The notes under the pieces are model-generated. The model was not told the DNA's origin and ran no database searches. It saw nothing but the letters and a program-made list of their open reading frames with translations. Source: Zygnema cylindricum (Eukaryota; Streptophyta; Zygnematophyceae; Zygnematales; Zygnemataceae). From it: a DNA stretch of 64,000 nucleotides. Where the stretch lies: positions 26,122 to 90,121 of the forward strand of contig JBBHKE010001417.1 of assembly GCA_037447655.1 (NCBI GenBank). The letters are read 5' to 3'. The position numbers and the translations under genes are program-made. Positions 10,001-48,330 of the stretch are shown here, one piece after another (the first letter of the stretch is position 1; each line of letters opens with the position of its first letter).

Positions 10001-12339
10001 CCCAACTAAGCTTCCACTATTCCCTCTTCTGATCTCGGCACCGTGGATCAAGCCCGCTTGATGACCAGACTCTTCTTCCTCCTCCACATCCTCGCTTTCA
10101 CTACCACTACTTCGATCCCCAACCATACGAATTCCTCTCGATTTGCGATTGAGCTGCTTAAACCGTGTCGGGTCATTCTCAGAAGTTGGCGATATCTCTG
10201 TATCTTGCAAAAACCCAAATCGACCCTGCCCCGAAAAGTTTCTCACATCTTCTGCTGAAGGAGTTTTTGTCTCTATGGGTCTGAAAACCTCCTCTTTTCC
10301 ACCACCGCCATTTGAATACACCCCAAACATAGGCCGGAGCCCATCGACTGATGATTTGCTTGCTTCCGAAGACGAACGGCTCAGATTCGGTTCCGATTTA
10401 ATCGTACGAATATCCAGTTGCTCATTCGAGGAAGACCTACTCAGACTTGGCCCATTTCCTCCTTTGTTCACTGTCTTATTTACAGCAGAAATCATCTCAT
10501 CCCATGTGTATTCTGCTGGAGTACTTAAGTCATTATCCCACCACCTTTGTACACTCTTTGTTGAATCCTCACCAGAAAGCCCCACTACTACTGTAGAGGG
10601 AGGTTGTATTGTACCAAAAATAGTGTCAATTCCCTTCTTTGCCGCAGCATGGACCCACATAATACAAAAAGCCACAAATTCGACCAATCGCGCAAACATC
10701 CGAATAATAAAATAAGGGCTAGCTTGCGATACGGCATATTTTAATTTCAACTTTCTTACAACCTTGGCAAGCAAAACTGTCCATAAAGCCATCGCCACTC
10801 TGATAAAAAAACTGAATCGGGCCAATATTCCAATCAACAGAAGTCCCCCATTCACAGAGTATATGTAACTCCAAAAATGACTATTTCCGTTCTTCCCCTC
10901 AACCTTAGGCTGTTCTACATCGTCCTTCTTTAAGGGATCCACTGCACCACTAACACCTACCGTTTGACTTACGGGCGGTACAACCGGTTTTCCATTCATT
11001 CCCACATGCCAACCCTCCAGAGAACATTCCTTCTCCAACGGAATATGGGTAATACAATTCTCCACAGTCACCCATTCTGATGGACCGTGGCCTCCCCAGG
11101 CTTGTACTCGATACATATATGGGACTCCTAAAACCAAATTACTGTCATCTAATAAAGCATCTTCTGTGGGATCTCCCACTTCAACCCAAGCAGCTGAACG
11201 AGTTGCTCGTCGTTGAACCAAATATTTGTGGACAGGTGGCAAGCCGAGGTTGGTCGGAGGATCCCACTGTAACTGAATCGAGCCACATGGAGTAGCCTCA
11301 CATTCGAGAGCTTTGGGCTGACCAGGGACCCTCCCAAGGCCAAAAATTTGACGAAAGATTGACTGATGTATTTTTGTTTGATGTAAAAGGCTTTGCACTC
11401 CCAAGTCTTCACGCAATGCTTTGTTATCATCTGTTATTAAGGTTAAGAAATCAAGTCCTACAATCGCATTCCTGCGAAAAGCATCTGCATATCGGGGAAG
11501 GCGTAAACCATGGATAACCCATTCCACAACCTGCTCTCCTGTGAGCATATTTTGAAGATGATCCTGCAAATCAAAAAGGAAAAGGAGGAGAGAGAAGGGT
11601 TCTGAGACCTCAGTTGAGAAAAAAATGTGTCAAGAGATCCACAAAAGTTCATGCCCGCATCGACTCCTCGAGGTCTTTATCCAATCAAAGATAAGGAATT
11701 AAGAATGGGACCCTAGAAAAGGTCTGGAGAACCCATAACTGCAAAAACAGACACACTTCCATGACACTAAAAAAGAAGTGCTGTAAATCCAAATGTGGCT
11801 CAAACTACATACACTGAGCTCAGATGCCGATATTGTGCTCCCTCCGTAAGAAAATTCATTCTCTACATTTTGCAATGCCAAAAGCTCTGCCATGGTTGTG
11901 TCCTCGCCTCCTTCCCGCTGATCATTTGCTTCATTCGAGGACATGTCCAGAAGCTGCAATTCGACAGCACAGGCAGAAAAAATCACCTAAAAATTACAAT
12001 CCGTCACATTTTTTTCTATTATTCCTCAGCATTGCAGAGGACAAGCACATTAAAACGTGCTACAGACAGTCCACGAACTTGAGCCAATAAGCTGATATGA
12101 CTATAAATTAAAACTGCATTTTGTGCTTGATACCTTTGTTGTTCAAGAAAATGACCATGCAGTTATATAAGCAGTCTAGGAGCTGAAAACTTGAGAGAAT
12201 TCCTCAAAAAAAATTATAAATGGCTTGGAGTTTACCCCTGTCGAGGCTGCCACAGCGGCTGCCGCTTCATGCTGCTCAATTTCTCCATCTCCATCAGCAT
12301 CTATAGCTTGAAAAAACTTTTCAAAGTCAAGTGGTTTAT
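7081..12339 (-). CDS. EF-hand / SAM / fibronectin III / membrane / FYVE-like finger protein, 5' incomplete
   Basis: I do not recognise a named family; the combination suggests a calcium-responsive, membrane-anchored scaffold (inference). Exons in coding order: 12236-12339, 11813-11953, 9981-11563, 9309-9564, 8380-9228, 7081-7602 (stop TAG at 7081-7083). All borders are GT..AG and every phase joins, giving about 1150 codons. Domains in order: EF-hand loop DADGDGEIEQHE; acidic linker; SAM-like domain at the start of the large exon (VVEWVIHGLRLPRYADAF...); one fibronectin III domain (WDPP ... YMYRVQAWG); two hydrophobic segments (GGLLLIGILARFSFFI and YFIIRMFARLVEFVAFCIMW); Ser/acidic tail; then a Cys/His finger with HYCRDCQGVYC and CLCYSC, close to FYVE layout; then a low-complexity SR- and Pro-rich C-terminus. 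The 80-bp intron 9229-9308 is inferred: without it the frame runs into a stop at 9207. The start codon and upstream exons were not found. Confidence 0.8.
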
Positions 12340-20501: not shown

Positions 20502-23500
20502 TGTAGAAACTAATGGTTTTAAAGTATTTTCTAGGTCTGAATACAAATATAGAAGCCGAGGCAGTCTATCTCTAACTTCTCTCTCCAACTCTCAAACTTG
20601 TCGCAGTCACTGAGAAATTGGAAAGGAAGCTAGAGCCATGGCTACCTAGGCTATCCTGAGGTTTACGCGAAATTTATATTAGTTCGGGTTTATTTATTTA
20701 AAAGCTATGTGCCGGCCACAGGAATTGATCCTTGTACTTACCGGCCGGCAGACATGAAATAACCGGTAGCCTTAGCCGTTAAGTCTACGAGTCATGATAC
20801 GTAGTATATAGTTTAATAGTTATTTAAATATGTATACGTACGATTATTCATTTAACTATAATAGATTACGGGATACATAGATCCGGTAATATATAAAGTA
20901 CGGATTACGGTACGGACTATAAATCAATACCGCGCATTTGTTTCGTAAATGAAACAAATACCGCACATGTATTTATTACGGCTACGATTAAATTAGATTC
21001 TAAATCGGACGGCCGCAATTAGCGCCGAGATCGCGGAGGAAGTTTTCGGCGGTTTGTGGCCATCGCCACATCGGATGACGCGTGGCGAAATTTCGTTGGA
21101 TCGTGGAATCCCCGGAGATTATGGCATCGAATCTGGATATGACATGTGTCGACATTTAGGCCTTGTCGTACAATGTCCGTACCTAAAGTACACCGGCAGC
21201 TGTACTTTTGCGTACGGAACTCAATTCTGATTGGTTCCGTACATCAGTAGATAGAGTCTGTGAGAGAGATAGGATTTAGAAAAAATAGGAGATAGGACCC
21301 TCTCTCCCAGAGAGCTTCTGTACAAAAGGTCAACTTTGACCCTCTATAACTTACTGCTCAGGGGAGCAAATTCAGAGATTCTTTTTGCTATCGACTCAGG
21401 GGAGTCTTGTCTTCACAGGGGTGAAGGTGGTCAGAGTTTTTGTCTGCCAAGGTGGCAGTTATTTTTGCTTAAACACAAAGGGGTCAGGATTATCCTAGAG
21501 GCTTTTTGGAAGCTGTCCACTCTGAGGACTTATGGAGGTCTCAAAGTTTCAGGTTATGGGCCCACCCTCTAGGGTACCAATCTTTAATGGAACAGGCTTC
21601 ATATACTGGGAAAGTATGATGATAGGAGCTTTATGCGAAAAAAGGTTTTGGGGGATAGTGAGTGGACGATTAGGGCGTCCATCAAGTCTTGGAATTCCTC
21701 CAGGGTTTAAAGGAAGCAGATTCACCAGGAAAGAGGATTCACCTTCAACGGAGGAAACAAAGGAAGGAGAGGTGGTGGACAAATGAAAGGAGAAGGAGGC
21801 GACCACACCAATAGCAACTGGTTTAGCATTCATGTCACCTATTCCGAGAAACGAGGAAAATGATACTGAAACCTGGGACTTCAACAATATGGCGGCAAAG
21901 CACTTCATCCTATGCCATCTCACTCAAGGACTTGCATGTCCTCATTTGCAGGTAGAGAGGGCATCCGATCTTTGGATGGCTCTCATAGAGATGTACCGAA
22001 GTGGTACGATTCAGCAACAACAGTTGGCTGATCAGAAAGTTAAGGAGTATGTATACAAAGGGGGAAATATGTTGGATTTTTGCAATGAGCTTGCTACACT
22101 CTTCATGGAGCTAGAGAGTGCGGGAAAATTTTTTAGTGAAAAAGAAAAGGTTAACTGTTTACTAATGAAGTTACCTGATGAGTTCGAGAACATAGTCAAC
22201 CGTGTGCAGGACTTGCCGGACTCAAGGTGGATATGGAACTCAGTGGTAGGGATGATTCTCGTTCGAGAGAATACAATTGAGATCCGAAGGGGAGGAAAGA
22301 GTGGCCAAGCCTTGGCAACAGCGACCGATTGGAGGAACAAGGATTTCCTGAAACTAGTCGAAAACTATGGGGGTAGGGAGCAAAAAAAACAGGTTGACGA
22401 GTTCGAACCAAGGGCTCCCAAAGGTTTATGTCATTTTTGTAAGAAACCGGGGCACTATATGGCAGAGTGCACTAAGCTAACCGAGCTTCGATTAAAGGAG
22501 GGGCAGACCGGTGGTACCCCGAGAGGAAAGAAAAAGGCCCTTGTCACACAGGTACTTGAGGCGGAATCCGAGGACAAGGACGATGAACTCCTTTTGGATG
22601 AGGAGTTGGAGGCGAAAACTGAGCTTGAAATTCCACAAAGGCAGAAATGTGCTTACGGTGGATTGAAAGGTGAAGCAGGCTGGATTATAGATTCAGGAGC
22701 CTCAATGCACATGTGTAAGGAAAGGCACTTGTTCACTAAGATAAGAAAAATTCCCACCGTAGAGATAGAGTACGGGGATGGGAGGATAGTCACCACTACT
22801 CTTGTAGGATCGGTAGATCTGAAAGTGTTAGTAGAAGGAAAGACATCCATATTAACATTCTCCGATGTATTGTTTATCTCGGAGCTGAACAAAAACCTTA
22901 TCTCTACATCTGTATTAGATGATAAGGGTTTTTTTACTAGCACTAGGGAAGGAGTCTTTACTGCTAGTTTTGAGGAGGATGTCTATTTCATTGCTGAGAA
23001 AGGTAGCCATGGGATGTTTAGGCTGGTTTTAAGTAATGAAACGAAGAAACTTTATTATTGCTGGTGTTCATGATATTATGATGTGGCATAAGAGGCTTTA
23101 GCATGTGAATCTAGAAAAGTTTAGAGAGATGAAAAAAATGGGAGTGGTGGAAGGGATTAAGTTCAGTGAGAGTGATAATATAAGGGATTCTAATGGATGT
23201 GCTCAAGGTAAAACACACAGATTACCCTTTTTTAAAACAGCCACCTATAAGGGAGAAAAAATTCTAGATTTAGTACACACAGATATTTGGGGACCGGCTT
23301 GAGTGCCCTCACCGGGGGGGGGAAGAGATTTATGATGACTATAACTGATGATTGGTCTCGGTATTCCCGGTTGTATTTTTTGAAAAACAAGTCATAAGCT
23401 GAGGACTGTTTTAGACAATATAAAGCATGGAGCGAAAAACTCCATGAAACTCCAATCAAGAGAGTAAGGGGTGACAATGGTGGAGAGTATACTTCTAACC

Positions 23501-25146
23501 AGTTTGAGGATTTTTTGAGGGAAGATAGGGTTCAACACCAAAAGACAGTTCCAGAAAATCCGAAACAGAATGGGGTAGCTGAAAGGTTAAATAGAACACT
23601 AAGTGATAGTGCTAGAAGTATGTTGTCGGATAAGAAGATAGGAAAAAGGTTATGGGCAGAAGCAATGAACTGTGCTAATTACCTCAAAAATAGAGTTCTT
23701 ACTTCAGCTATAAAAGATCAAACACCTTATGAGAGATGGACAGGCCGGAAACCAGACTTATCTCATTTAAAGGCTTTGGGCAGTCAAGTGTTCAGTCTAG
23801 ATACTGATCGGTCCAATTGGAAGCTAGATCCTAAAGGGAAACCGGGATACTTATTAGGATATGATGAAGATGTTAAAGGATATAGTGTTTATGATCTAAA
23901 AAGGGAAGATATAATCTTAGTAAAGCATCTAGTAGTTATGGATGAAGGAAAGTCTGTGGATCCCTTCAAATATACGAAGTCAGTAAAATCAGATTTGAGT
24001 CAGAAAATTCCGATGACTTTGAGCTTCCTAACTATCCAGGTTTTAGAGAAGATGACACTCTTGCAGGAACAAATCAGACCGAAAAGGACTCGGCTGTGGA
24101 AACTCTAGTGACAACTCTACTCGAAGCGGAAGACGTGGTCGAAATTGACTCGGAATCAAGGGATAGGGGAGAAGCCGAGTTTGTTTGAAAGAATCCACGA
24201 GAACCATCTATTCCAGCCTCAGATTTTGAGGGGGGGAGGAGAAGTAGCAAAAGACTGCAAGAAAAACAGGTTAATAACAAGGTAACTAAACTATCTCATC
24301 AAGATGAACCTCAAACTTATAGAGAGGCGATGATTTGTCCAAAAAGAAATCGGTGGAAGACACCATCAATGAGGAGATGGCCTCAATCATGGCAGCCGAT
24401 ACGTGGGAGCTGGTGGATTGTCCACCTAACCAAAAACCAATCGGTTATAAGTGGGTTTTTAAATTAAAACTGGACCCAGATAACACAATCGAGCGCTACA
24501 AGGCCAGATTAGTGGCAAAGGGATTTACACAAAAGGAAGGAATTGACTACGAGGAAACCTTTGCCCCGGTGGTCAGATTTCCCTCTGTCCGCATACTTCT
24601 CAGCCTGGCAGCAGCGGAAGACATGGAAGTGCACCAGATGGACATCAAAACAACCTTTTTGCATGGAGAATTGGAAGAGGAGATCTTCATGCGACAACCC
24701 GAAGGGTTTGTGGAAGAAGGAGAGGGAAGTAAGGTATGTCGGCTGATTAAATCTCTTTATGGTTTGAAACAGGCGCCTCGACAGTGGAATAAGAAGCTTG
24801 ATGAGTTTCTTACCGGTCTAGGATATATTCGGATCAGCTCAGATCACTCAATCTATGTTTTCGAAGATGAGGAAGGTTATATATTTATTGCAATTTATGT
24901 AGATGATTTGCTTGTTTTAAGTAAATCAATGGAAAAAATTAATAAACTGAAAACCGATCTTAAGGGGAGATTTGAAATGAAGGATATGGGGGAAGCAAAT
25001 CATATTTTGGGAATTCAAGTAGAGAGAGACCGAAAAAGAAAAATTATAAGATTGACTCAAAATGAAGCAATAGGGAACATGCTTGAAAAATTTCAAATGG
25101 ATAAAGCTAATAGTTGTACAACTCCAATGGAGTTGAAGAAGGGAAG
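20502..25146 (+). mobile_element. Copia element B: 5' LTR and disrupted gag-pol, 3' part lost
   Basis: 5' LTR 20502-21551, primer site 21552-21566, then gag-pol up to the late RT region, where the reading frame stops abruptly at 25146 against the LTR of gypsy element G. No 3' LTR of B is present on the far side of G, so a deletion followed or accompanied that insertion. B itself sits in the gag of A. Confidence 0.85.
21532..25146 (+). pseudogene. Copia B gag-pol (gag, protease, integrase, RT), broken
   Basis: Domains in order: UBN2-type gag; zinc knuckle CHFCKKPGHYMAEC; aspartic protease IIDSGASMHMC; integrase (QNGVAERLNRTL); RT with KWVFKLK, QMDIKTTFLHGELEEEIFMRQP and YVDDLLVLSK. Breaks seen against copy C: TGA 21784-21786, one inserted base near 23055, TGA 23300-23302, a lengthened G run near 23314-23322, TAA 23395-23397, a one-base loss near 23985, TGA 24186-24188 and a one-base loss near 24362. 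RNase H is absent because of truncation. Not functional. Confidence 0.85.
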
Positions 25147-27266
25147 TGTCATGCCGCAAGACGTCGGCGGGTATTATTACTGATCTTATTCTAATTGAGG
25201 TATAACGGAATAATACAGGTCCGTTTCGGAGTGCTTAGTTGAAGTACGGACGGAACTAAAGTCGTACCTTTTTACCATCATGGAAACAGATTTCGGTACG
25301 GCATCAGGTTTCGCACATAGGAACGGCTCCAAACCTGACATCTTATGTACCCCAACGGTTACATACCTGACACATGTCCAAGTCGCGAACCCTCGGAGGT
25401 TCATGCATTATTTTTGTAGCGTAGGGAGTGTTTTCATCCTCGAGGTGTAGATGTAAGGCTTTCCGAGGCGGCCACATAGCGGCCACCTCTAGAAACTGGC
25501 AGCGTTTGTACATAGAAAGCTGCTTGCTCAAAGACATGCATAAATTAGTGTAGCTATACGATAGGCGACAGCATAAGATAAAGGCCATGTGGCCACATTA
25601 GATTAGTCGCAAATTACAACACGGGAATCCAACATTGGAGAGTTGTCGTTTTCCGGCAAACTACATTCTCGGGATTTGTCGAACCTTTTCTTGCTTCCCT
25701 TTCAGTTAGCGTTGCTCGGCTGATATTTAGGATCAGTTGGTTGTTGAGTTAGGGTTTCTCTTTTTTGGATCCTTAGTCTCTTTCCTAGCCTAGTCTCTCA
25801 GCTTTTCTGAACTCTCTTTGTGTATTAGTCCTTACCTAATCTACCGGCGCAAGCCAGCCTGCAAGGTTTCCCTCCAGACTGTGTTTCATTTGCCGTGCTC
25901 TATGAATTCTGGAGTGTGAATCTTGCGTGTATTGTGGTTGTTGCACGATTTCCGTTGTCTGTTTCCTTTTTCCTATGGCTTCGGAAGTTCCGGTTTTCTC
26001 AGAGGTCTCCGCCGGTTAAGGAGAGTTTGCTATTTTGGCAGTTAACCTCTTGTAGGGAATATTGAAGACTTCAAGGCCTAGTGGCTACTGTCGCAAATAT
26101 TCCCGTGTTGTAATTTATTTCTATTTATTTTCTAATTTTCTTTATTTCGGTGTGGATTAGTTTTTTTTATTTTTAGTTTATTTTAAATTGTTTTTTTGCT
26201 ATCGGGTTATTGTGATTGGTTTTTTTTTCCAGACTAGTGGTTTTCGTTGGATTTCTTTCATCAGTTTTTATCTTCAATCTTTAGGGTTTTGTTGCTAGTG
26301 GACTGTGAGTTGGATATTTAAATCTGGTATAGTGTCCTCTTTCCTTCTACCCACCGGATTAACTCAATCAGAAAACCTAGCAAACCTAAAAACTTATAAA
26401 AAAAAAAATCATATAAAAAACCAAGAAAAAAAAAAACAATTATTTATATTTAATTATATAAATTAGCTTGCACGAATTATCACATAGAATTATAACTGCT
26501 TTAATAGTTGGGTAGAGCGTGGCTTAAAGCTGATACGCGTACCCTAACAGGTTACTAACTACTTTGGCATTGAGCTGTGGTGTGATTCCGATAACTTCGA
26601 ACTGGAGCATCGTGGGGAAATATTCAAGGTATCCTACTGGATGCTATCGCTTCAGGTGAGCAACCAATCATTGTGGGTGCAGGCGCGTTATAGGTTATCA
26701 AGCGCACTCGGTTAGGGGGTTAGATATCTTGCCGAATGCCACATTTTCTCTCCGTATAGGACATCATCGTTGGATAGTCCTAGTTTCTTGTTTTATTACA
26801 TCTGGCCGTTTTGGCCCTGAATAGTTTCTTGTCTTATTACATCTGGTCGTTTTGGCCCTGAATAGTTTTTGTTTTTTATTACATCTGGCCGTCTTGGCCC
26901 TGAATAGTTTCTTGTTTTATTACATCTGGCCGTGTTGGCCCTGAATAGTTTTTTGCTTTATTACATCTGGCCGTGTAGGCCATGAACAGTTTCCTTTTTA
27001 TTATATCTGGCCGCAAGTGGCCTTGCATAGGTGGCATCAGGTTGCTTGGCATGGCGTGACGTTAGTGGGATTGGACAAGACAGTTTACGAGTAGACTGAC
27101 TCTGGTGATACAGGATAGGCCGAACGGCGTGGTGTGTCAGTCTTGCGGCTATTTGCAACTTTTGCGTGTGTTGGCATTTAGCTGCATCCGGATAGGACCG
27201 TCTTTTGTATACATGCCAACGGACTGGAATAATTTACAGTTTCCGGGTGGTACCACCAGAAGCTAA
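25147..27266 (+). other. 5' LTR and leader of gypsy element G (inner LTR border unresolved)
   Basis: Noncoding, T-rich in the middle (26100-26300), followed by a tandem array at 26782-27028. Without a 3' LTR the LTR end cannot be set by comparison, and no convincing primer site was found; tggtaccaccagaagc at 27248 is a weak candidate. Confidence 0.5.
26782..27028 (+). repeat. Six-copy 41-bp tandem array with GGCC-N5-GGCC palindromes
   Basis: Six consecutive units beginning agtttcttg... and containing attacatctggccg...ggccctgaat. Five of the six keep an interrupted palindrome GGCC(N5-6)GGCC while the spacer bases vary; unit 2 has ggtc in the left half. Located in the leader upstream of gag. 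Confidence 0.9.
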
Positions 27267-28559
27267 GGTGCTTACCAAGGGCCGCCCAGAGAGTTTATTA
27301 CAGCCAGTCCTCCTCCAATATCTTTTCCCAACTCAGCAGTTCAGTCACCATTTTTAGGATCACCCAGTCAGTCGAGATCTGGTCTCTCTTCGCTCAATAG
27401 GTCTACGTCATCGGTTTATTCATCTGTCACCCACAGTTCGGGGGAAGATTCGGACACTGACTCGCTTGACATACGGGGTCTACGTTTACCACCGTCAATT
27501 TTCTCAGTGGGCCGTACCATACATACTAATCACACCTCTTTTAGTGTGGACATGGCCTCGTCCATGGACACCGGAGGTAGTAAACATCATTTCTGTTTTT
27601 CTGGTCTCAAGGACACCATGTCCTTGTCCCACTTTCGCATGCGTTTCAATACCAAAATGCGTGACTTTGCGTTTCGGTACCAAGACCGTTATGTTATGCT
27701 GGTCGCTTTTTCTTTGCTAGGGAGATACCTCAGAGGATCAGCCCTATCCCTTTATACACGGAAATACGAGGAAATTTTTGCTATGACCGAAATAGCACCC
27801 CCCTATTCCGGAGCTTTGGCCATAATTGGCAGCCCCGAAATTCCTTTCCAACCCGCTGCCTCAGCAATTTATGACTCCGCAGGCAACGAGGTTTCCGCCG
27901 AAATACCTGAGGTTCCTCATCGATTTGCAGTGGCAGCAAGGGCTGCAATTCCGGCTAGACCTAAAATGCTAGTCCCTCTTAGAGATCCATTCTCATTAAT
28001 TTTCGATTTATTACAGGACGAATATTGGATGCAGAATCGTGACGAAGTCAAAGAATTAATGAAGTTCGAACGCATACCGGGTGAAACGGCCCTGGCATTG
28101 CGGTCACGTATGGAAACTTTGCGTGAGGCCCTACTGGATCTCATGTCAGAGGCTGAGGCGGTAAAAATATATGTGGGTCAATTCCCCACGCAATCACGAC
28201 GGTTCATTCAGAACCGTGTGACCGAAGCATATGGCCTTAAATTCACCTGCGGGCAGGCTGCAAAGTATGCTGCGAAGTACGAAATACACACCAGCTGGTA
28301 TGACGCTCACGAGCGGCCAAAACCTTCACCTAAAGATTACCCAAATCAAAATCCAAACCATTATTCTAACGCGAGCAACCGATGGCCCAACCCAAGACCT
28401 CCAAAGGCCCCGGCCATGGGATCATTACCCACAACGCCTAGAGCGCGTATATGTTTCCGGCGCGGTCACAGTGGTCACGACGCACGCAGTTGCCCAGACA
28501 AAGTAGCCACGTGTACCCAGTGCAATCAAACAAGTCACTACATAAGCGATGTCATATAA
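27267..28559 (+). pseudogene. Gypsy G gag (capsid / nucleocapsid)
   Basis: Frame open from 27267 (after TAA 27264-27266); first ATG 27552. Ser/Pro-rich N-terminus, then a capsid-like helical region (MRFNTKMRDFAFRYQDRYVM ... RSRMETLREALLDL ... GQFPTQSRRFI), then two CCHC-type knuckles near the end. The first knuckle has lost its second Cys (CFRRGHSGHDARSC) and the second (CTQCNQTSHYISD) is cut by a one-base loss just before its last Cys, which creates the stop at 28557-28559. A downstream frame 28549-28839 is probably the displaced continuation. Confidence 0.75.
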
Positions 28560-28854
28560 AAAATCCAGATTTCAGTTATCAAAATCAATTAAAAACGGCG
28601 GTATACGTGCTTGGGCGGCTAAATTGGTCACTCCACCAAAAGGGGAAGAAAACACACCCCCCAATCTCAGCAGGAGGGATCGAGATCAAGCAGAGATGAA
28701 AGCAATTATGTCGGTCATGATGAAGGAGCAGTTTGCCGCGCTTATGGCACAAGTCAAACCGCAATTAACTAGAATGGCCGGGATCGTAGTTCATCTGCCC
28801 TCTTTTGCCGGGCGATCTCTGAAAAAGTCTACCGTCTAAGAGCGGGCAGCTCTA

Positions 28855-29373
28855 TTGAAAGGGACTCCCGATCATAATCGTGAGTCTAAATCTATTAAGA
28901 CTCGCATACCATTATCTTTCGCTAAAGAACTTAAAACCCTTATCCCGGAAACAGCCTCTAGCATCATCGCTGAGGCCTTAACCATTCTCGAAGGGAGTAT
29001 ACAAGATGCCTATAAGGTCAAAGAACAGTTAGCAATACTGTCAACTATGCTCCCCGAACCGAAAAGTGAGGCTAAATCCTTTAATCTAACGAAATTTGCT
29101 CATGCATTACAGGTGCTTCAAAATCATCGTAGTACCCTAACTCTTCAAGTGATTACTCTAGAAGAGCATTCTAGTCTCACTCCACACATCAGTTTTCTAG
29201 ATAACAAGTTAGGCGTTTTCACAGTTAATGGGGTAGCTTCAGCTTTACCTCTCATGGACACAGGGGCGAAACCCATTATCCTCGGATCGGCTTTCGCCAA
29301 GAAACTAGGTCTGACTGCAGATACGCTACAACCTTCTACCACTTGTTTGTTGAGTTCCGCAGGAACCACATAA
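28855..29373 (+). pseudogene. Gypsy G retropepsin-like protease
   Basis: A helical linker (KELKTLIPETASSIIAEALT) leads into a retropepsin core: PLMDTGAKPIILGSAFAKKL, with the catalytic D-T-G triad at about 29257-29265. The frame ends at 29371-29373. A further fragment at 29461-29560 (EYECLVGQDVILRVGG) looks like the protease C-terminal flap region in another frame. Confidence 0.75.
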
Positions 29374-29879
29374 CCTGTCTTAGGTATGACAAAAAAACCA
29401 CTCTGTTTTCAATTTTAGTCTCATTAGGAATCCGATTTCGCAGAAATATACGCTCACGCCTTGGTCACCAAGTGTAGCGAGTATGAGTGCTTGGTCGGCC
29501 AAGACGTCATTTTGCGAGTGGGGGGGGGGGTTAATATGCTTGATCAAACACTTTCGTACAAACCAAACAATTTTCCACACTGCAAAGTTGGTTTACCTCT
29601 TATCTTGGCCGGGCAACCCATCCCTACCGGGCTCAGTCGGCTTTTGTCTTGCTAGCCTATGCTGCAGTTAGCATAGGTGCTGATATTCTTCAATCGTTAA
29701 CAGCGGAAGAAATCTTACCAGACCCCCCGGGAATGCTAGAATTATTTGGCACCCCAGGTTTTATTATTGACTCGGCAGATTTTGACAGATTGTATAAGTT
29801 CACGGTATTGATTCCTTTATACAGTATTCCAGATCCACCCGCTATTGCAATGGATCCGTCCAGGTTTTCCCCCATTAAA

Positions 29880-30870
29880 TGGAAATCAGTCAACATACAA
29901 CCTAACCCGAACGGTCTCATTATCTTAGACCTTTTTGCAGGTATAGGTACCACACTTCTCTCTTGCCTTAGGAACGGTATTCTAATCAAGCAATATTATT
30001 CTTTAGATATCGACCCTTTGGCTAGACGCGCTCAATTGCATCACTGTCAAATCTTACATGAACAATACCCTCACCTCTTACCATATTCTTCTTTTCATAG
30101 CATGCATTCTGCTTTACCGCACGATATGTGTCTATTAGGTAATCATCATTTGGCGGAGTTAGAACCAATCCACCTTCTTTTCGCAGGTTGGGAATGTCAA
30201 GGAATGTCTAGAGCTAGGAAGGGTTTAGGTCTGGCAGATCCGCGTACTAAACTGTTCTTTGAGGTGGTACGTTTTATCCATTTCTTTTAGTCACTAAACT
30301 GCCCCTTTGGATACGTCTTAGAAAATGTTGCAGCTCATAATGACCCTCGACCCACAGTTCTCGCAGACTACAAACGTATCGATTCATTAATTTGACCGCC
30401 ACTAATAATCGATGCCGCACGCCATGGCTCATTGCCCCACCGGTTTCGTTCCAAGTGGACTAATCTGGTGGACATAGACCGGCTCCGAGAAGCTAACCTT
30501 GCTGATCGACCACCTAAAATTTTCATCCATGACGCACTTCTTCCATTTTATAAGGTTCAGACATGTGTCCAACAGACTATCCTCCTGCATTTTGTCTTAA
30601 CATTCTTGGCCAACCGTTATGTGTACTTCCTACAGTAATCGCATATCCACACTCCCATGTAATTCACATAACTGACCCGGTATGCTTCAGAACATTCTTA
30701 CAGGCAGTCTAGAAGAACCTACCGCTGCGGAGAGAGTACTCCTCTTCCATTTCATTCCACGCACTACTGCTGCCCCAGGATTCACTGAGCGGTAGCACTG
30801 CTCCTTACTAAGTCGTGTTATGGATCCTCAATCCCTCTCATTTGTCTTGGGTATAGGGTTTGCAGCCGGT
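29880..30870 (+). pseudogene. C5-cytosine DNA methyltransferase domain inside gypsy G (DNMT3-like layout)
   Basis: Would transfer a methyl group from S-adenosylmethionine to cytosine C5. Seen in order: motif I LDLFAGIGTT (29925-29954); acidic motif II region YYSLDIDP; motif IV AGWECQGMSRA with the catalytic Cys codon at 30195-30197 (Glu replaces the usual Pro of PCQ/PCN); RARKGLGLADPRTKLFFEVV, the arrangement typical of DNMT3 after the catalytic loop; motif VI YVLENVAAH (ENV 30321-30329); motif VIII region DAARHG..HRFRSKWTNL (30411-30470); then EEPTAAER ... SLLSRVMDP in the position of motifs IX/X (30712-30860). Motifs I to VIII lie in one frame, interrupted only by TAG 30288-30290 and TGA 30393-30395; one or more frameshifts follow near 30573. 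Flanked by gypsy protease and RT on the same strand. The motif assignment is firm; the DNMT3-like placement is by eye. Confidence 0.85.
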
Positions 30871-31189
30871 CGATACGCATATAATCATCTGTCTCAATCG
30901 GCTGGGGGGGGGGAATACACCATTCAAACACACTACTTCTAATTCCTCAACTTCTCTCTAGGGTAGAACTTTCCAGCTCTTTCTTTTTCCTCCGTCTGTC
31001 AAGCCTAACACAAATCACACTATTTACGATTTCTTGGAACTTAGTCACATGAGTTGGTCCACCACAGCATACACAACAGCTAGATCTTTGATACCGGTAT
31101 ATGTAGTCCCACACTGGACAGCCGCATTTCCATCTAGAAGTTGGCATCATGCAGTGAATTGTTTGTATTAGCCTCTTGTTCAGTATGAG

Positions 31190-32446
31190 TTGGGACAGTC
31201 TTTAGTCGCGGATGAGCAGCTAGCTTTTGCACAAGCAATAGAATTGATTACCATCAACGCACCTAAAAAACCAACGTGGAAATTCGGGATGGGACTAACG
31301 GAACCGGAACATGAACAGTTAGACAGAGTCATAAACCAACACAAAGACACGTTCGCTTACTTCATGAAAGATCTTGGTCAACACACCACCTACAAAATGT
31401 CCATTGACCTAGAAGATGACAGACCCATATTCAAACCCAAGCATTGTCTATCAAAAACTGAATGGGAAGCAGTGGACAAACGATGCGCAGAGTTAGAAGA
31501 GGCAATACTGATTTATAGGCCAGACTCCACCTTTGTGGCGCCTACCGTCATGCCTCGTAAAAAAGACGCAGAGGGGAATTTCACAAAGCGTTGCATGTGC
31601 GAGGACTATCGAGAACTGAATTCCCGTACAATCCAGGACCAAAATCCAATGCCTTTGGCGGAGGACATTTTTGATCACGTGGGAGGGGCTAAATATTTCA
31701 TCATTCTGGTTCTACAACAAGGGTTTAACCAAATTGAAATAGAGGAAAAATACCGACATAAGACAACATTTTGGGGAAGTGATGGGCGTTGGGAATGGTT
31801 AGTTATGCCCTTTGGCTTGAAAAATGCACCGGCCGTATTTCAAAAGGTTATGGACTCAATCTTAGGGGGATGTAAGTTCACTTGGTGTTACATTGACTAT
31901 TTGATTATTGCTTCAGCCTCTATTGAGGAACACGCAACCCATATAGAGTGGGTATTAAAAGAGTTGAAAAAGGTGGGTCTCAAATGCCATCCGGCCAAAT
32001 GCATCTTCGGGGCTGAAGAGGTACCATATCTGGGGCATTTTATCTCCTCCAAGGGAATCACTCCTCTAGAAGCCAAGGTAGAAGCGATCAGTAAACTACC
32101 GGCCCTCAGATATTTAACGAGCTTGCATACATTCTTAGGTTTGGCTAATTATTATCATAGGTTTGTTCCTGGGATTAGCACGCTTGCATCCCCACTAAAT
32201 GAAATCTTGAAAAAATTAGTACCGTTTACTTGGGGACCCCCGCAGATTGAGGCATTTCAAGGATTAAAAAAAGTGCTGTCTACCGCCCCCATACTTTGCC
32301 CAGCAAATCATAAGTTACCATTTTGCCTGCAAACCGACTTTGGTAAGCCCGGTATCGCGGCCATTCTAACTCAGCGTGAGCTTATAGGTGAGGAATATAT
32401 GGTGGCTTATGCTAGTCGAAGCAACAATCAGGCCGAGTTGAACTAA
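31190..32446 (+). pseudogene. Gypsy G reverse transcriptase
   Basis: Clear Ty3/gypsy RT: CEDYRELNSRTIQDQNPMP, WEWLVMPFGLKNAPAVFQKV, PYLGHFISSKGITP, LHTFLGLANYYHRFVPG. Two catalytic aspartates are gone: the first motif reads FIILVLQQG with Val (31709-31711) where Asp is expected, and the YIDD box reads YIDY (Tyr at 31898-31900). The frame ends at TAA 32444-32446, inside the RNase H N-terminus. Confidence 0.9.
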
Positions 32447-33112
32447 TGTAGTTATGAAAGGGAGTGCCTAGCCGCAGTTTGGGGAATTGTACATTTCCGC
32501 CATTACCTTTATGGCCAACCTTTTACTCTTCTTACTGACCATCAACCATTGCATTGGCTCATGACCAATGACAAACTATCCGGCAAGTTAGCCTGCTTAG
32601 CCCTCATTTTGTAGGAATACGATATGGAGATCATCCATCAACCGGGGCTACTTAGTTTGAATGCCGACGGTCTTTCCCGAAACCCCTTACCCAATTCTGC
32701 CGATAATGGAGTACGACAAGATTTTGATGACGAACCTATTGCTTCACTATCTGCTGGAGCCCACCTGGTTTACAGTTTTTCGGGCCCCACCATGCACAAA
32801 ACAGAACACGATCCATGGAGGGATAGCGCTCTGGTCTTATTTTTATCAACCTAGTCCTTCTGAAAAGGCACTACACCAGGAGAGGAGGAGCGTGTCCGCA
32901 AAAGAGAGCAAAATTACTTATGGATGGGAAATTCCCTTATCCATCTCCTCGCAGATGGAAGTCATCGACATGTTCCTTGGCCGACAAAACGCTTATCACT
33001 TATCGATCAGATTCATACTGATCTGGGACATTATGGTACTAAACGGACTTTGAGTTTGGTACAAGCACGTTATTAGTGGTCAGGCATGCAGGCGGACGTT
33101 GCAGGCGGACGT
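32447..33112 (+). pseudogene. Gypsy G RNase H and integrase zinc-binding start
   Basis: Continues RT after a stop: YERECLAAVWGIVHFRHYLYG, LTDHQPLHWLMTNDKL, then a TAG near 32613 and EIIHQPGLLSLNADGLSRNP. After a spacer in a shifted frame, the integrase HHCC region appears (DLGHYGTKRTLSLVQARY) with a stop replacing the Trp of QARYW. The core with its DDE residues is missing. Confidence 0.75.
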
Positions 33113-42944: not shown

Positions 42945-43993
42945 TGTAGAAACTAATGGTTTTATTAGTATTTTCTAGGTCTGAAAAGAAATATAGAAGT
43001 CGAGGCAGTCTATCTCTAACTTCTCTCTCCAACTCTCAAACTTGTCGCAGTCACTGAGAAATTGGAGAGGAAGCTAGAGCCATGGCTACCTTGGCTATCC
43101 TGAGGTTTACGGGAATTTTATATTAGGGTTTATTTATTTAATTAAAAGGTAAATGCTGGCGGCAGGATTTGATCCTTGTACCTTCCGGAAGGCAGATGGG
43201 ATATAGCCGGTAGCCTTAGCCGTTAAGTCTAGCGCTAGTGTTACGTACCATATAGTTTGATATTTATTTAAATATGTATACGTGCAATAAACCATTTAAC
43301 TGAAATGAATTACGGGATACATAGATCTAGTAATATATAATGTACGACTTACGGTAAGGACAAAAAAGAGTACCGCGCATTTGTTTCGTAAATGAAACAA
43401 ATACCGCGCTTGTATTTATTACGGCTACGATTAAAGCCGAATTTAATCGGACGGCCGGGATTAGCGCCGAGATTGTGGAGGAAGATTTCGGCCGTTTGTG
43501 GCCATCGCCACATCGGATGACGCGTGGCCAAATTCCGTTGGATTGTGGAACCTCCGGAGATTATGGCACCGAATCTGGATTTGACATGTGTCGACATTTT
43601 GGCCATGTCGTACAATGTCCGTACATAAAGTACACCGGCAGCTGTACTTTTGCGTACGGAACTCAATTCTGATTGGTTCCGTACATCAGTAGATAGAGTC
43701 TGTGAGAGAGATAGGACTTAGAAAAATTAGAAGATAGGACCCCCTCTCCCAGAGAGCTTCTATATAAAAGGTCAACTTTGACCCTCCATAACTTACTGCT
43801 CAAGGGAGCAAATTCAGAGATTCTTTTTGCTATCGACTCAGGGGAGTCTTGCCTTCACAGGGGTGAAGTTCGTCAGAGTTTTTGTTTGCCAGGGTGGCAG
43901 TTATTTTTGCTTAAACACAAAGGGGTCAGGATTATCCTAGAGGCTTCTTGGAAGCTGTCCACCCTGAGGACTTATGGAGGTCTCAGAGTTTCA
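42945..43993 (+). repeat. 5' LTR of copia C
   Basis: Contains a tRNA-like segment on the minus strand (about 43147-43232), a TATA box tatataaaag at 43761-43770 (the other copies have tgtacaaaag here) and a palindromic W-box ggtcaactttgacc at 43770-43783. The gag ATG at 43974 lies inside the LTR. Confidence 0.9.
43770..43783. promoter_or_regulatory. Palindromic W-box in the copia C 5' LTR
   Basis: ggtcaactttgacc contains two opposed TTGACC W-box cores separated by two bases, directly downstream of the TATA-like sequence. Also at 19432-19445, 21328-21341, 49179-49192 and 57196-57209; half-degraded at 51767-51780. WRKY factors bind such cores in plants; use here is inferred. Confidence 0.6.
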
Positions 43994-46900
43994 GGTTATG
44001 GGCCCACCCTCTAGGGTACCAATCTTTAATGGAACTGGCTTCATATACTGGGAAAGTATGATGATAGGAGCTCTATGCGAAAAAAGGTTTTGGGGGATAG
44101 TGAGTGGACGATTGGGGCATCCATCAAGTCTTAGAATTCCTCCAGGGTTTGGAGGAAGCAGATTCACCAGGAAAGAGGATTCACCTTCAACAGAGGAAAC
44201 AAAGGAAGAAGAGGTGGTGGACAAAAGAAAGGAGAAGGAGGCGACCACACCAATAGCAACTGGTTTAGCATTCATGTCACCTATTCCGAGGAACGAGGAG
44301 AATGATACTGAAACCTTGGACTTCAACAATATGGCGGCAAAGCACTTCATCCTACTCCATCTCACTCAAGGACTTGCATGTCCTCATTTGCAGGTAGAAA
44401 GGGCATCCGATCTTTGGATGGCTCTTATAGAGATGTACCAAAGTGGTACGATTCAGCAACAACAGTTGGCTGATCAGAAAGTTAAGGAGTATGTATACAA
44501 AGGGGGAAATATGTTGGATTTTTGCAATGAGCTTGCTACACTCTTCATGGAGCTAGAGAGTGCGGGAAAAATTTTTAGTGAAAAAGAAAAGGTTAACTGT
44601 TTACTGATGAAGTTACCTGATGAGTTCGTGAACATAGTTTACCGTGTGCAGGACTTGCCTGACTCAAGGTGGATATGGAACTCAGTGGTAGGGATGATTC
44701 TCGTTCAAGAGAATACAATTGAGATCCGAAGGGGAGGAAAGAGTGGCTAAGCCTTGGCAACAGCGACTGATTGGATGAATAGGGATTCCCGAAAACCAGT
44801 CGGAAACTATGGGGGTAGGGAGCAGAAAAAACAGACCGACGAGTTCGAACCAAGGGCTCCCAAAGGTTTATGTCATTTTTGTAAGAAACCGGGGCACTAT
44901 ATGGCGGAGTGCACTAAGCTAACCGAGCTTCGGTTAAAGGAGGGGCAGACCGGTGGTACCTCGAGAGGAAAGAAAAAGGCCCTTGTCACACAGGTACTTG
45001 AGGCGGAATCCGAGGACGAGGACGATGAGCTCCTTTTGGATGAGGAGTTGGAGGCGAAAAATGAGGTCGAAATTCCACGAAGGCAGAAATGTGCTTACGG
45101 TGGATTGAAAGGTGAAGCAGGCTGGATTATAGATTCAGGTGCCTCAATGCACATGTGTAAGGATAGGCACCTGTTCACTAAGATAAGAAAGATTCCCACC
45201 GTAGAGATAGAGTACGGGGATTGGAGGATAGTCACCACTACTCTTGTAGGATCGGTAGATCTTAAAGTGTTAGTAGAAGGAAAGACATCCATATTAACAT
45301 TCTCCGATGTATTGTTTATTCTGGAGCTGAACAAAACCTTATCTCTACATCAGTATTAGATGATAAGGGTTTTTTCACTAGCACTAGGGAAGGAGTCTTT
45401 ACTGCTAGTTTTGAGGAGGATGTCTATTTCATTGCTGAGAAAGGTAGCCATGGGATGTTTAGGCTGGTTTTAAGTAATGAAAAGAAGAAACTTTATTATG
45501 CTGGTGTTCATGATATTATGATGTGGCATAAGAGGCTTGGGCATGTGAATCTAGATAAGTTAACAGAGATGAAAAAGATGGGAGTGGTGGAAGGGATTCA
45601 GTTCAGTGAGAGTGATAATATAAGTGATTGTAGTGGGTGTGCTCAAGGTAAAGCACACAGATTACCCTTTCCTAAAACAGCCACCTACAAGGGAGAAAAA
45701 CTTCTAGATCTAGTACACACAGATATTTGGGGACCGGCTAGTGTGCCCTCACCGGGGGGAAAGAGATTTATGATGACTATAACTGATGATTGGTCTCGGT
45801 ATTCCCGGGTGTATTTTTTGAAAAACAAGTCAGAAGCTGAGGATTGTTTTACACAATATAAAGCATGGAGCGAAAAACTCCATGAAACTCCAATCAAGAG
45901 AGTAAGGAGTGACAATGGTGGAGAGTATACTTCTAACCAGTTTGAGGATTTTCTGAGGGAAGATGGGGTCCAACACCAAAAGACAGTTCCAAAAAATCCT
46001 GAACAGAATGGGGTAGCTGAAAGGTTAAATAGAACACTAAATGATAGTGCTAGAAGTATGTTGTCGGATAAAAAGATAGGAAAAAGGTTTTGGGCAGAAG
46101 CAATGAACTGTGCTAATTACCTCAAGAATAGAGTTCTTACTTCAGCTATAAAAGATCAAACACCTTATGAGAGATGGACAGGCCAGAAACCAGACATATC
46201 TCACTTAAAGGTTTTCGGCAGTCAAGTATTCAGTCTAGATACTGATCGGTCCAATTGGAAGCTAGATCCTAAAGGAAAACCGGGATACTTATTAGGATAT
46301 GATGAGGATGTTAAAGGATATAGAGTTTATGATCTAAAAAGGGAAGATATAATCTTAGTAAAGCATCTAGTAGTTATGGATGAAGGAAAATCTGTGGATC
46401 CCTTCAAATATACGAAGCCAGTAAAAATCAGATTTGAGTCAGAAAATTCCGATGACTTTGAGCTTCCTAACTATCCAGGTTTTAGAGAAGATGATATTCT
46501 TGCAGGTACAAATCAGACCGAAAAGGACTCGGCTGTGGAAACTCCAGTGACAACTCTACCCGAAGCGGAAGACGTGGTGGAAATTGATTCGGAATCAAGG
46601 GATAGGGGAGAAGTCGAGTTTGTTCGAAAGAATCCACGAGAACCATCTATTCCGGCCTCAGATTTTGAAGGAGGGAGGAGAAGTAGCAATTTACTGCAAG
46701 AAAAAGAGGTTAATAACAAGGTAACTAAACTATCTCATCAAGATGAACCTCAAACTTATGGAGAGGCGATGACTTGTCCAGAAAGAAACCGGTGGAAGAC
46801 AGCCATCAATGAGGAGATGGCTTCAATCATGGCAGCTGATACTTAGGAGCTGGTGGACTGTCCACCTAACCGAAAACGAATCGGTTGTAAGTGGGTTTTC

Positions 46901-48330
46901 AAACTAAAACTGAACCCAGATAACACAATCGAGCGCTACAAGGCTAGATTAGTGGCAAAGGGATTTACACAAAAGGAAGGAATTGACTACGAGGAAACCT
47001 TTGCCCCGGTGGTCAGATTTCCCTCCGTCCGCATACTTCTCAGTTTAGCAGCGGCGGAAGACATGGAAGTGCACCAGATGGACATCAAAACAGCCTTTTT
47101 GCATGGAGAATTGGAAGAGGAGATCTTCATGCGACAACCCGAAGGGTTTGTGGAAGAAGGAGAGGAGAGTAAGGTATGCCGGCTGATTAAATCTTTTATG
47201 GTTTGAAACAGGCGCCTCGACAGTGGAATAAGAAGCTTGATGAGTTTCTTACCGGTCTAGGATATATTCGGATCAGCTCAGATCACTCAATCTATGTTTT
47301 CGAAGATGAGGAAGGTTTTATATTTATTGCAATTTATGTTGATGATTTGCTTGTTTTAAGTAAATCAATGGAAAAAATTAATAAACTGAAAACCGATCTT
47401 AAGGGGAGATTTGAAATGAAGGATATGGGGGAAGCAAAATATATTTTGGGAATTCAAGTAGAGAGAGACCGAAAAAGGAAAATTATAAGATTGACTCAAA
47501 AGGAAGCAATAGGGAACATGCTTGAAAAATTTCAAATGGATAAAGCTAATAGTTGTACACCTCCAATGGAGTTGAAGAAGGGAAGTGAGGGGAGTGAGGA
47601 AGAAGGAGTCAAAGTCTTAGACGAGGAATTATCTCCTGATGAACAGAAGTTCATGCAGACTATTCCTTACAGGCTAGTAGTGGGAAGTCTAATCTATTTT
47701 ATGAATTGTACCCGGCCGAATTTAGCTGCAGCTGTAGGAGTGCTGAGTAGAAGTCTAAATGCTCCCACTAAGAAGGATTGGGAGGCAGCTAAGAGAGTCT
47801 TTAGATACTTGGTAGGAACTCGAGATCTATGGTTGCATTTGGGTGGGGAGAATACTGACATCACTACTTGGAGTGATGCTAGTTATGGTGATGCTCCGAT
47901 GAGGAGATGTACTTCTGGATATGTATTATATGTGGGTGATGGGGCTTGCTGTTGGAGTAGCAAACAGCAAAAGGTTATTGCTCAGTCCACCATGGAGGCT
48001 GAGTATATGGCCTCTTGCTCTGCTGTAAAAGAATTGATGTGGGTCAAGTCTTTGCTTGGTGAGCTTGGTCACCTTAAGAGTGGTGTGCAGAAAATATTTT
48101 GTGATAATCAGGCAGGAATCGCTATTTCTGCCAATCCTAAACACCATTTTAAAGCCAAACACATGGACATCAGACTCAGCTTTGTTAGAGAGAAAGTAGA
48201 AAACAAAATAATCAGTTTAGAGTACAGACCAGATAGTGAGATGGTAGCAGATATGATGGCCAAACCTGTGCCTTCCCCTAAGTTAATTTTTTGCAGGGAG
48301 AAGTGTGGTCTGAAATTAAAGATTGACTAG
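43974..48330 (+). pseudogene. Copia C gag-pol polyprotein, four breaks
   Basis: Starts at ATG 43974 in the LTR and reads through the primer site. Domains: UBN2-type gag (IFNGTGFIYWESMMIGALCE ... LACPHLQVERASDLWMALIE), zinc knuckle CHFCKKPGHYMAEC (about 44870), protease WIIDSGASMHMC (about 45124), pre-integrase MWHKRLGHVNL ... CSGCAQGK (45520-45655), integrase with HTDIWGP, SDNGGEY and QNGVAERLNRTL (the three acidic catalytic residues present), RT with MDIKTAFLHGELEEEIFMRQ and YVDDLLVL (about 47335), RNase H with SDASYGD, TMEAEYMA and CDNQAGI, ending at TAG 48328-48330. Breaks: TAA 44748-44750, a one-base loss near 45333, TAG 46844-46846, a one-base loss near 47194. All catalytic residues I can check are intact. 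Confidence 0.9.
43994..44008 (+). other. Primer binding site of copia C: initiator tRNA-Met anticodon arm
   Basis: ggttatgggcccacc follows the LTR with no spacer and is the exact complement of the anticodon stem-loop region GGUGGGCCCAUAACC of plant initiator tRNA-Met, the half-tRNA priming known for Drosophila copia and yeast Ty5. The same site occurs at 19656 (A) and 21552 (B), with one change at 51990 (D), and as an 11-base match in E. Confidence 0.85.

Follow-up and report, generated by a model that had tools for sequence, protein, structure and literature searches.

A DNMT3-type methyltransferase carried by a gypsy element is known from Klebsormidium nitens (KnitGypsy-Dnmt3; de Mendoza 2018, PMC5890265), in the report on retrotransposon methyltransferases to which the preliminary description of the present locus had referred. 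According to the available text of that report, KnitGypsy-Dnmt3 gave no methylation in yeast, a result that its authors treat as inconclusive, and the related cases from Symbiodinium, SymbioDIRS-Dnmt3 and SymbioLINE-Dnmt, are likewise retrotransposon-borne DNMTs, of which the captured DNMT3 of SymbioDIRS methylates CG de novo in yeast (PMC5890265). The Symbiodinium enzymes differ from the one described here in that they belong to DIRS (tyrosine recombinase) and LINE elements rather than gypsy elements, and in having dinoflagellate hosts. The accessible part of Morozov 2019 (PMC6338049) notes in general terms that green algae and charophytes contain Ty3/Gypsy and DIRS elements with a methylase, and a 2025 survey, as far as available, cites the retrotransposon cases of 2018 and lists the LTR Copia, DIRS and LINE types (PMC12344493). 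Orchid gypsy elements with an RNA demethylase have also been reported (PMC9289625), and nothing on gypsy-borne methyltransferases was found in the accessible portions of PMC9033089, PMC8226300 and PMC10538959.

The window analysed here is a 64,000-nt stretch of the genome of Zygnema cylindricum (assembly GCA_037447655.1, contig JBBHKE010001417.1, positions 26,122–90,121, forward strand). It contains a decayed Ty3/gypsy element in which a C5-cytosine methyltransferase domain sits between the protease and the reverse transcriptase (RT), which supports the earlier proposal that a gypsy element had captured such an enzyme. Coordinates below are those of the window, and L029 is an intact copy found elsewhere in the genome:

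25354–33106, plus strand: decayed Ty3/gypsy element, given as the span alignable to L029 (blastn pieces, about 75–80% DNA identity)
25354–25554, plus strand: remnant of the 5' long terminal repeat, to which L029 311–1138 and L029 9778–9981 both align
27267–28559, plus strand: open gag frame of 430 codons, 75% identity to L029 gag
28840–29373, plus strand: aspartyl protease frame (LMDTGAKP), PF13650 at 20.7 bits, below the cut-off of 24.3; 79% identity to L029
29682–30287, plus strand: N-terminal part of the DNMT3-like C5 methyltransferase, with motif I (LDLFAGIG) and motif IV (GWECQ); PF00145 at 2.2e-7
30309–30638, plus strand: methyltransferase motifs VI (LENV) and VIII (HRFR), in the frame of the motif I/IV part, beyond stops at 30288 and 30393
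30639–30900, plus strand: C-terminal part of the methyltransferase, motif IX–X region, in shifted frames, with motif X near 30820
31172–32446, plus strand: RT, running into RNase H, in a 424-codon open frame; PF00078 at 3.3e-26, PF17919 at 3.9e-14
32447–33106, plus strand: remainder of RNase H, with two stops, followed by a spacer and by the initial 18% of the integrase piece, where homology stops (33106)

The methyltransferase was recognised by Pfam profile search in the frame 29544–30287 (PF00145, 31 bits against a cut-off of 22, E 2.2e-7), so that the expected match to the C5 methylase profile was obtained. Motifs I, IV, VI and VIII do lie in one frame (29544–30638) despite two stops, as first described, with motif X in another. 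The interval originally given for the domain, 29880–30870, was correct in location and slightly narrow in extent, as the domain begins near 29680 and ends at about 30900; the span proposed for the whole element, 25147–33112, is close to the alignable one. Aligned to L029, the methyltransferase of the window falls into three segments with four stops that together cover 98% of the domain. The RT matches RVT_1 and not RVT_2, and the gag frame at 27267–28559 gave no Pfam match. Neither the start of the 5' LTR nor the 3' end of the element (most of the integrase, the PHD finger and the 3' LTR) was found by alignment to L029, and comparison of domains with L029 likewise revealed no PHD finger in the window element. 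Relative to its nearest copies, the window copy has dN/dS values nearer to neutral (0.60 for the methyltransferase; 1.47 for the RT, at low dS). The window copy is thus a dead, 3'-truncated member of its family, a fossil. Upstream of gag, at 26740–27040, lie tandem repeats of about 41 bp each, and similar ones are present in L029 and other copies. Elsewhere in the window, copia-type frames occupy 21787–25180, 43968–48327 and 53444–55287; by Pfam, the frame at 21787 encodes gag and Pol_BBD and the region 43968–48327 encodes gag, integrase and RVT_2, and the frames at 23398, 24323, 53444 and 54622 were judged copia-type from reading their translations. A likely host gene frame is present on the minus strand at 9980–11629, with a SAM domain and a sub-threshold match to fibronectin type III.

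The search of the host genome for intact copies recovered L029, which has a single open frame of 2395 codons encoding gag, protease, methyltransferase, RT, RNase H, integrase and a C-terminal PHD finger. Pfam matches occur in the order PF00145 (2.1e-12), RVT_1 (1.4e-30), RT_RNaseH_2, Integrase_H2C2, rve (2.5e-12) and PHD (2.9e-10); a CCHC knuckle and the protease both gave matches just below cut-off. Membership of Ty3/gypsy follows from the RT–RNase H–integrase order together with a gypsy-type RT, and direct long terminal repeats are present. Direct terminal repeats 9.5–9.8 kb apart and 88–100% identical were identified in 7 of 20 fetched loci, including L029 (100% over 419 nt, beginning TGTCATGCC), L039 (99.6%; the repeat is at least 465 nt, the fetched locus ending within it) and L040 (99.7%); with terminal repeats this similar, some copies look young. 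By eye, no primer binding site was recognised in L029 960–1320, and no obvious polypurine tract directly precedes its 3' repeat; within the fetched loci, no target-site duplication was seen. The PHD finger lies after the integrase at the extreme C-terminus of L029 and was identified in 14 of the 20 fetched copies, with a complete set of zinc ligands in most of these. This placement recalls the chromoviruses, in which the integrase of a gypsy element likewise ends in a chromatin-reading domain, except that theirs is a chromodomain and here it is a PHD finger; no chromodomain was detected in L029 7601–9319 (Pfam, E up to 0.05).

Set against its published description, from which alone the comparison is made, KnitGypsy-Dnmt3 resembles these elements in having an unpermuted DNMT3-type domain, under purifying selection, within the Pol of a green-algal LTR gypsy element. 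It may differ in its repeats, which the legend in that paper describes as DIRS-like, the loci described here having direct terminal repeats and being covered to the 3' repeat. It differs in that the term PHD is absent from the main text of PMC5890265, whereas a PHD finger is present here; and in the hundreds of matches found in this genome.

Searches of the assembly (352.8 Mb, 2689 contigs) show that the window copy is one of many. The group A methyltransferase lineage, to which the window belongs, has at least 151 matches including the window copy, the others at 57–81% identity (150 of 1209 candidates scored). Group B, the other lineage, is 38–39% identical to two group A loci over the methyltransferase domain and has at least 117 matches at 64–100% identity (116 of 1897 candidates scored), one copy contributing two of them as separate pieces. 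With the PF00145 profile, at least 123 matches were obtained, every one above cut-off (123 of 782 candidates scored). Some of the matches come in pairs with the same score, and these may reflect duplicate haplotype contigs that inflate the counts. One PF00145 match outside both element lineages (L007, 1498–1797) is a chromomethylase-like exon: its best PDB match is to 4fsx-type chains at 3e-29, followed by DNMT1 rows at 1e-12. The title of the 4fsx entry reads methyltransferase 1, and we take the entry to be maize chromomethylase. On these matches L007 is likely an exon of a host chromomethylase and not an element. Chromomethylases occur in streptophytes according to the available part of the 2025 survey (PMC12344493).

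Twenty group A copies, chosen mainly for long open frames, were fetched as 10-kb loci. All 20 contain the methyltransferase, this being the basis of their selection; the RT lies directly downstream in 19 and gag lies upstream in 18, with one copy rearranged (L031) and one lacking the 5' part (L047). A search that started from the RT gave at least 99 matches (99 of 3931 candidates scored), the best 50 of which were compared with 150 group A methyltransferase places and 8 PF00145 places. A methyltransferase lies 842–978 nt upstream (median 892) at 32 of these 50 RT places, and at the other 18 there is none among the matches listed; these may be misses of the list or true losses. Those 18 places would speak for chance, or for a single event that placed a host methyltransferase gene in one gypsy copy. 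The domain recurs at the same position and spacing across the genome, has diverged under selection and occurs in the same order in relatives from other organisms, and this excludes chance and rules out a one-off insertion for the family; we give that explanation practically no credence. Six RT places (C449, C1063, C2234, C2304, C2495 and C2602 of the host genome, G000) share one score and one level of identity to the query, and may represent a recent burst or duplicate contigs. We conclude that the methyltransferase-bearing gypsy family is large, old and probably recently active.

The methyltransferase has motifs I, IV, VI, VIII, IX and X in canonical order. Its best match, both by profile and by structure, is animal DNMT3A/B, ahead of DRM, DNMT1/2 and bacterial enzymes, and the predicted fold of the methyltransferase of a relative is DNMT3-like, with about 25% identity over the structural alignment. 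The unpermuted order, with motif I before IV, VI and VIII in both the window copy and L029, rules out the DRM type; the absence of DRM among the 50 VIA-align structure matches listed carries no weight on this question. DNMT3 itself also combines a methyltransferase and a histone reader, the latter being its PHD-like ADD domain. The element enzyme differs from animal DNMT3A/B in its low identity (about 25%), in the residues flanking the catalytic Cys, with Gln following it where DNMT3A has Asn and, in most rows, Glu preceding it, and in lacking the ADD and PWWP domains, neither of which was matched in L029. A near viral or bacterial source was also considered. The listed matches in a structure comparison with viral proteins were mostly phage and giant-virus enzymes with TM-scores below that of DNMT3, and sequence scans gave distant relatives alone, at 13 viral loci (two patterns; 22–34% identity) and two bacterial loci (one pattern; 26 and 31% identity). 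Such a source is therefore rejected, weakly, as the scans used only two viral patterns and one bacterial pattern.

Comparison of dN/dS across copies, as had been suggested at the outset, indicates purifying selection on the methyltransferase (median pairwise dN/dS 0.199; 32 copies, 211 pairs) much like that on the RT (0.212). Medians for the other domains are 0.174 (gag), 0.198 (protease), 0.090 (RNase H), 0.135 (integrase) and 0.196 (PHD finger), and the methyltransferase is thus held like the rest of Pol. These values are Nei–Gojobori estimates for pairs at dS 0.05–1.5, with decayed copies included and stops skipped, and with segments below 55% identity and nine duplicate loci left out.

The active site was examined in an alignment of 119 of 125 relatives (see below) with 40 group A rows from the host, among which some insertions were fetched twice. 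The catalytic Cys is present in all 40 host rows and in 116 of the 119 relatives, and most rows also retain Glu in motif VI and Arg in motif VIII. Directly before this Cys stands Glu in 39 of the 40 host rows and 85 of the 119 relatives; Pro occupies the position in 29 of the relatives and in five group B frames. To our knowledge, Pro at this position of motif IV is nearly invariant in known enzymes; most rows here depart from the Pro-Cys pair and yet pass the Pfam cut-off. No report of Glu before the catalytic Cys surfaced in the full-text literature, without a dedicated search for the motif. This substitution is the strongest reason to doubt that the element methylates DNA, and it speaks for an alternative in which the fold has been kept for another role, either as a DNA/RNA-binding or multimerising module of Pol or as an enzyme acting on RNA or the tRNA primer, with the Glu marking the change. 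That Glu replaces Pro in most of the family while selection holds, and that KnitGypsy-Dnmt3 was silent in yeast (PMC5890265, as far as its text was available), would both suit such a role. We regard it as unlikely, if a serious contender, given that most rows keep the catalytic Cys together with the Glu of motif VI and the Arg of motif VIII, that group B and the 29 relatives have the usual Pro, and that the fold is nearest to DNMT3.

Methylation might also leave a trace in the decay of the copies. In six young copies, C-to-T changes amount to 6.1% at CG, 8.0% at CHG and 3.1% at CHH, and transversions are raised at CG and CHG too (1.9 and 3.0%, against 1.4% at CHH), so the excess there is weak; across all 16 copies the transition/transversion ratio does not differ between CG (2.1), CHG (2.3) and CHH (2.4). 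The copia frames in the window also speak against a need for such an enzyme, as these elements multiply without a methyltransferase (none by Pfam in four frames), and the 18 RT places with no methyltransferase among the matches listed point the same way. A further alternative is that the methyltransferase mainly restrains the element, in that insertions would be silenced early, the cost to the host would be lower and the element would persist. This idea is discussed in the accessible text of de Mendoza 2018 (PMC5890265) and would fit the high copy number and the many decayed copies; we consider it improbable, as the near-identical terminal repeats suggest recent spread, a reading that the six equal-score RT places may share if they are a burst rather than duplicate contigs. 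Restraint and camouflage would account equally well for these observations.

The two lineages in this genome differ in how gag and pol are joined, gag and pol forming one frame in the intact group A copy L029. The pol start is visible in five group B loci (L001, L002, L003, L006 and L008, possibly with duplicates among them). In these, a TAG stop closes the upstream frame and is followed, without a change of frame, by CAATTCCC; L003 retains this junction at 51% protein identity. UAG-CAR-YYA is the readthrough context of tobamoviruses. The UAG-CAA-UUC junction of group B resembles it, which suggests that pol of group B is expressed by readthrough of the stop codon.

Three database searches yielded 125 relatives. 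Those with a name or organism code include the streptophytes Mesostigma viride (Mesvir1) and Closterium and the chlorophytes Haematococcus, Chromochloris (Chrzof1), Chlamydomonas eustigma, Monoraphidium and Pleodorina; none of the relatives from these searches has a Klebsormidium label, organism labels being present on a minority of rows. Two domain orders, assignable in 76 of the relatives, were distinguished. In order I (19 relatives), the methyltransferase lies before the RT (9) or directly after the protease (10), and in order II (57 relatives) it follows the RT or RNase H (33) or immediately precedes the integrase (24). Among the 49 relatives with no order assigned are the protein from Haematococcus and one of the two from Chromochloris. 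Order I is shared by the host elements and the named charophyte relatives, and the named order II relatives are chlorophytes. This shared order and the chromomethylase-like exon L007 favour a streptophyte host, in keeping with the charophyte or related host hinted at in the preliminary description. A PHD finger is present in 18 of the 125 relatives, all of order II, and the fetched host elements combine order I with a PHD finger; the Closterium protein P0027 gave no PHD match although it extends through the integrase. Coexistence of two domain orders is also known for SymbioDIRS (PMC5890265, in the part available).

In the methyltransferase tree, from which three long-branch rows and two outgroup rows were left out, order II forms one clade of 66 rows (ultrafast bootstrap 100, SH-aLRT 99), within which fall the Haematococcus, Chromochloris and C. 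eustigma rows with no assigned order. The same split between orders, with one change, appears in trees of the RT (31 rows; SH-aLRT 98) and of the integrase (27 rows, five of order I; SH-aLRT 90). On the simplest reading, methyltransferase, RT and integrase have a common history, with a single relocation. Rooted on phage enzymes, the tree places the methyltransferase-first order at the base, but that order as a single clade is not rejected by an AU test (p 0.417), and either order may be the original one. Group A of the host groups with P0001 and P0008, and group B with P0032, so this genome harbours two lineages that share one domain order. A single capture of the methyltransferase is likely, judged from trees that comprise elements carrying the domain and omit cellular DNMTs and domain-free gypsy elements. 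One further methyltransferase–RT protein, P0031, has a divergent active site (WDC), long branches in both the methyltransferase and RT trees and no PF00145 match at 0.01; in the RT tree, this divergent order I protein joins two other gypsy RTs of the host on long branches. P0031 may represent a separate capture.

We read the window element as a dead copy from a large family whose members carry a DNMT3-type methyltransferase in Pol and a PHD finger after the integrase, and we consider the most likely use of the enzyme, at about even odds, to be the marking of the element's own new DNA or of its insertion site. The methyltransferase would be made within Gag-Pol and, from its placement inside Pol, would be delivered in the particle together with RT and integrase. 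It would then methylate cytosines of the new double-stranded DNA of the element or of the chromatin at the insertion site, and the mark would be kept by host maintenance enzymes. Through its PHD finger, the integrase may direct insertion, and hence methylation, to chromatin of a given histone H3 state. The likely gain would be that new copies arrive marked as 'own' or quiet, escape responses to DNA damage or foreign DNA and do less harm; low expression would be the cost of such self-marking.

Beyond this genome, we hold it possible, with somewhat less than even confidence, that the elements represent an old green-algal gypsy clade that unites a writer (DNMT3-type) and a reader (PHD) in one polyprotein, in which the writer moved once within Pol, in one direction or the other, between a place before the RT and one between RNase H and integrase, and in which, in most members, a Glu-Cys enzyme of altered chemistry or regulation would mark new copies at integration. 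A gypsy-borne DNMT3 is itself known; new relative to the 2018 case are the large family, the PHD finger and the relatives in several green algae. The full-text literature, with subscription journals mostly outside its coverage, gave no report of the PHD finger, of two gypsy orders or of the UAG-CAA-UUC junction. Cytosine methylation is how many hosts silence transposons, and a transposon that keeps a methyltransferase under selection is for this reason a paradox. In the literature found, the earlier detailed gypsy case rested on one charophyte. The two lineages, young copies and PHD reader described here, together with charophyte and chlorophyte relatives, provide a comparative system in which enzyme activity, the timing of methylation and targeting can be tested across domain orders, across active-site variants and between copies with and without the methyltransferase.
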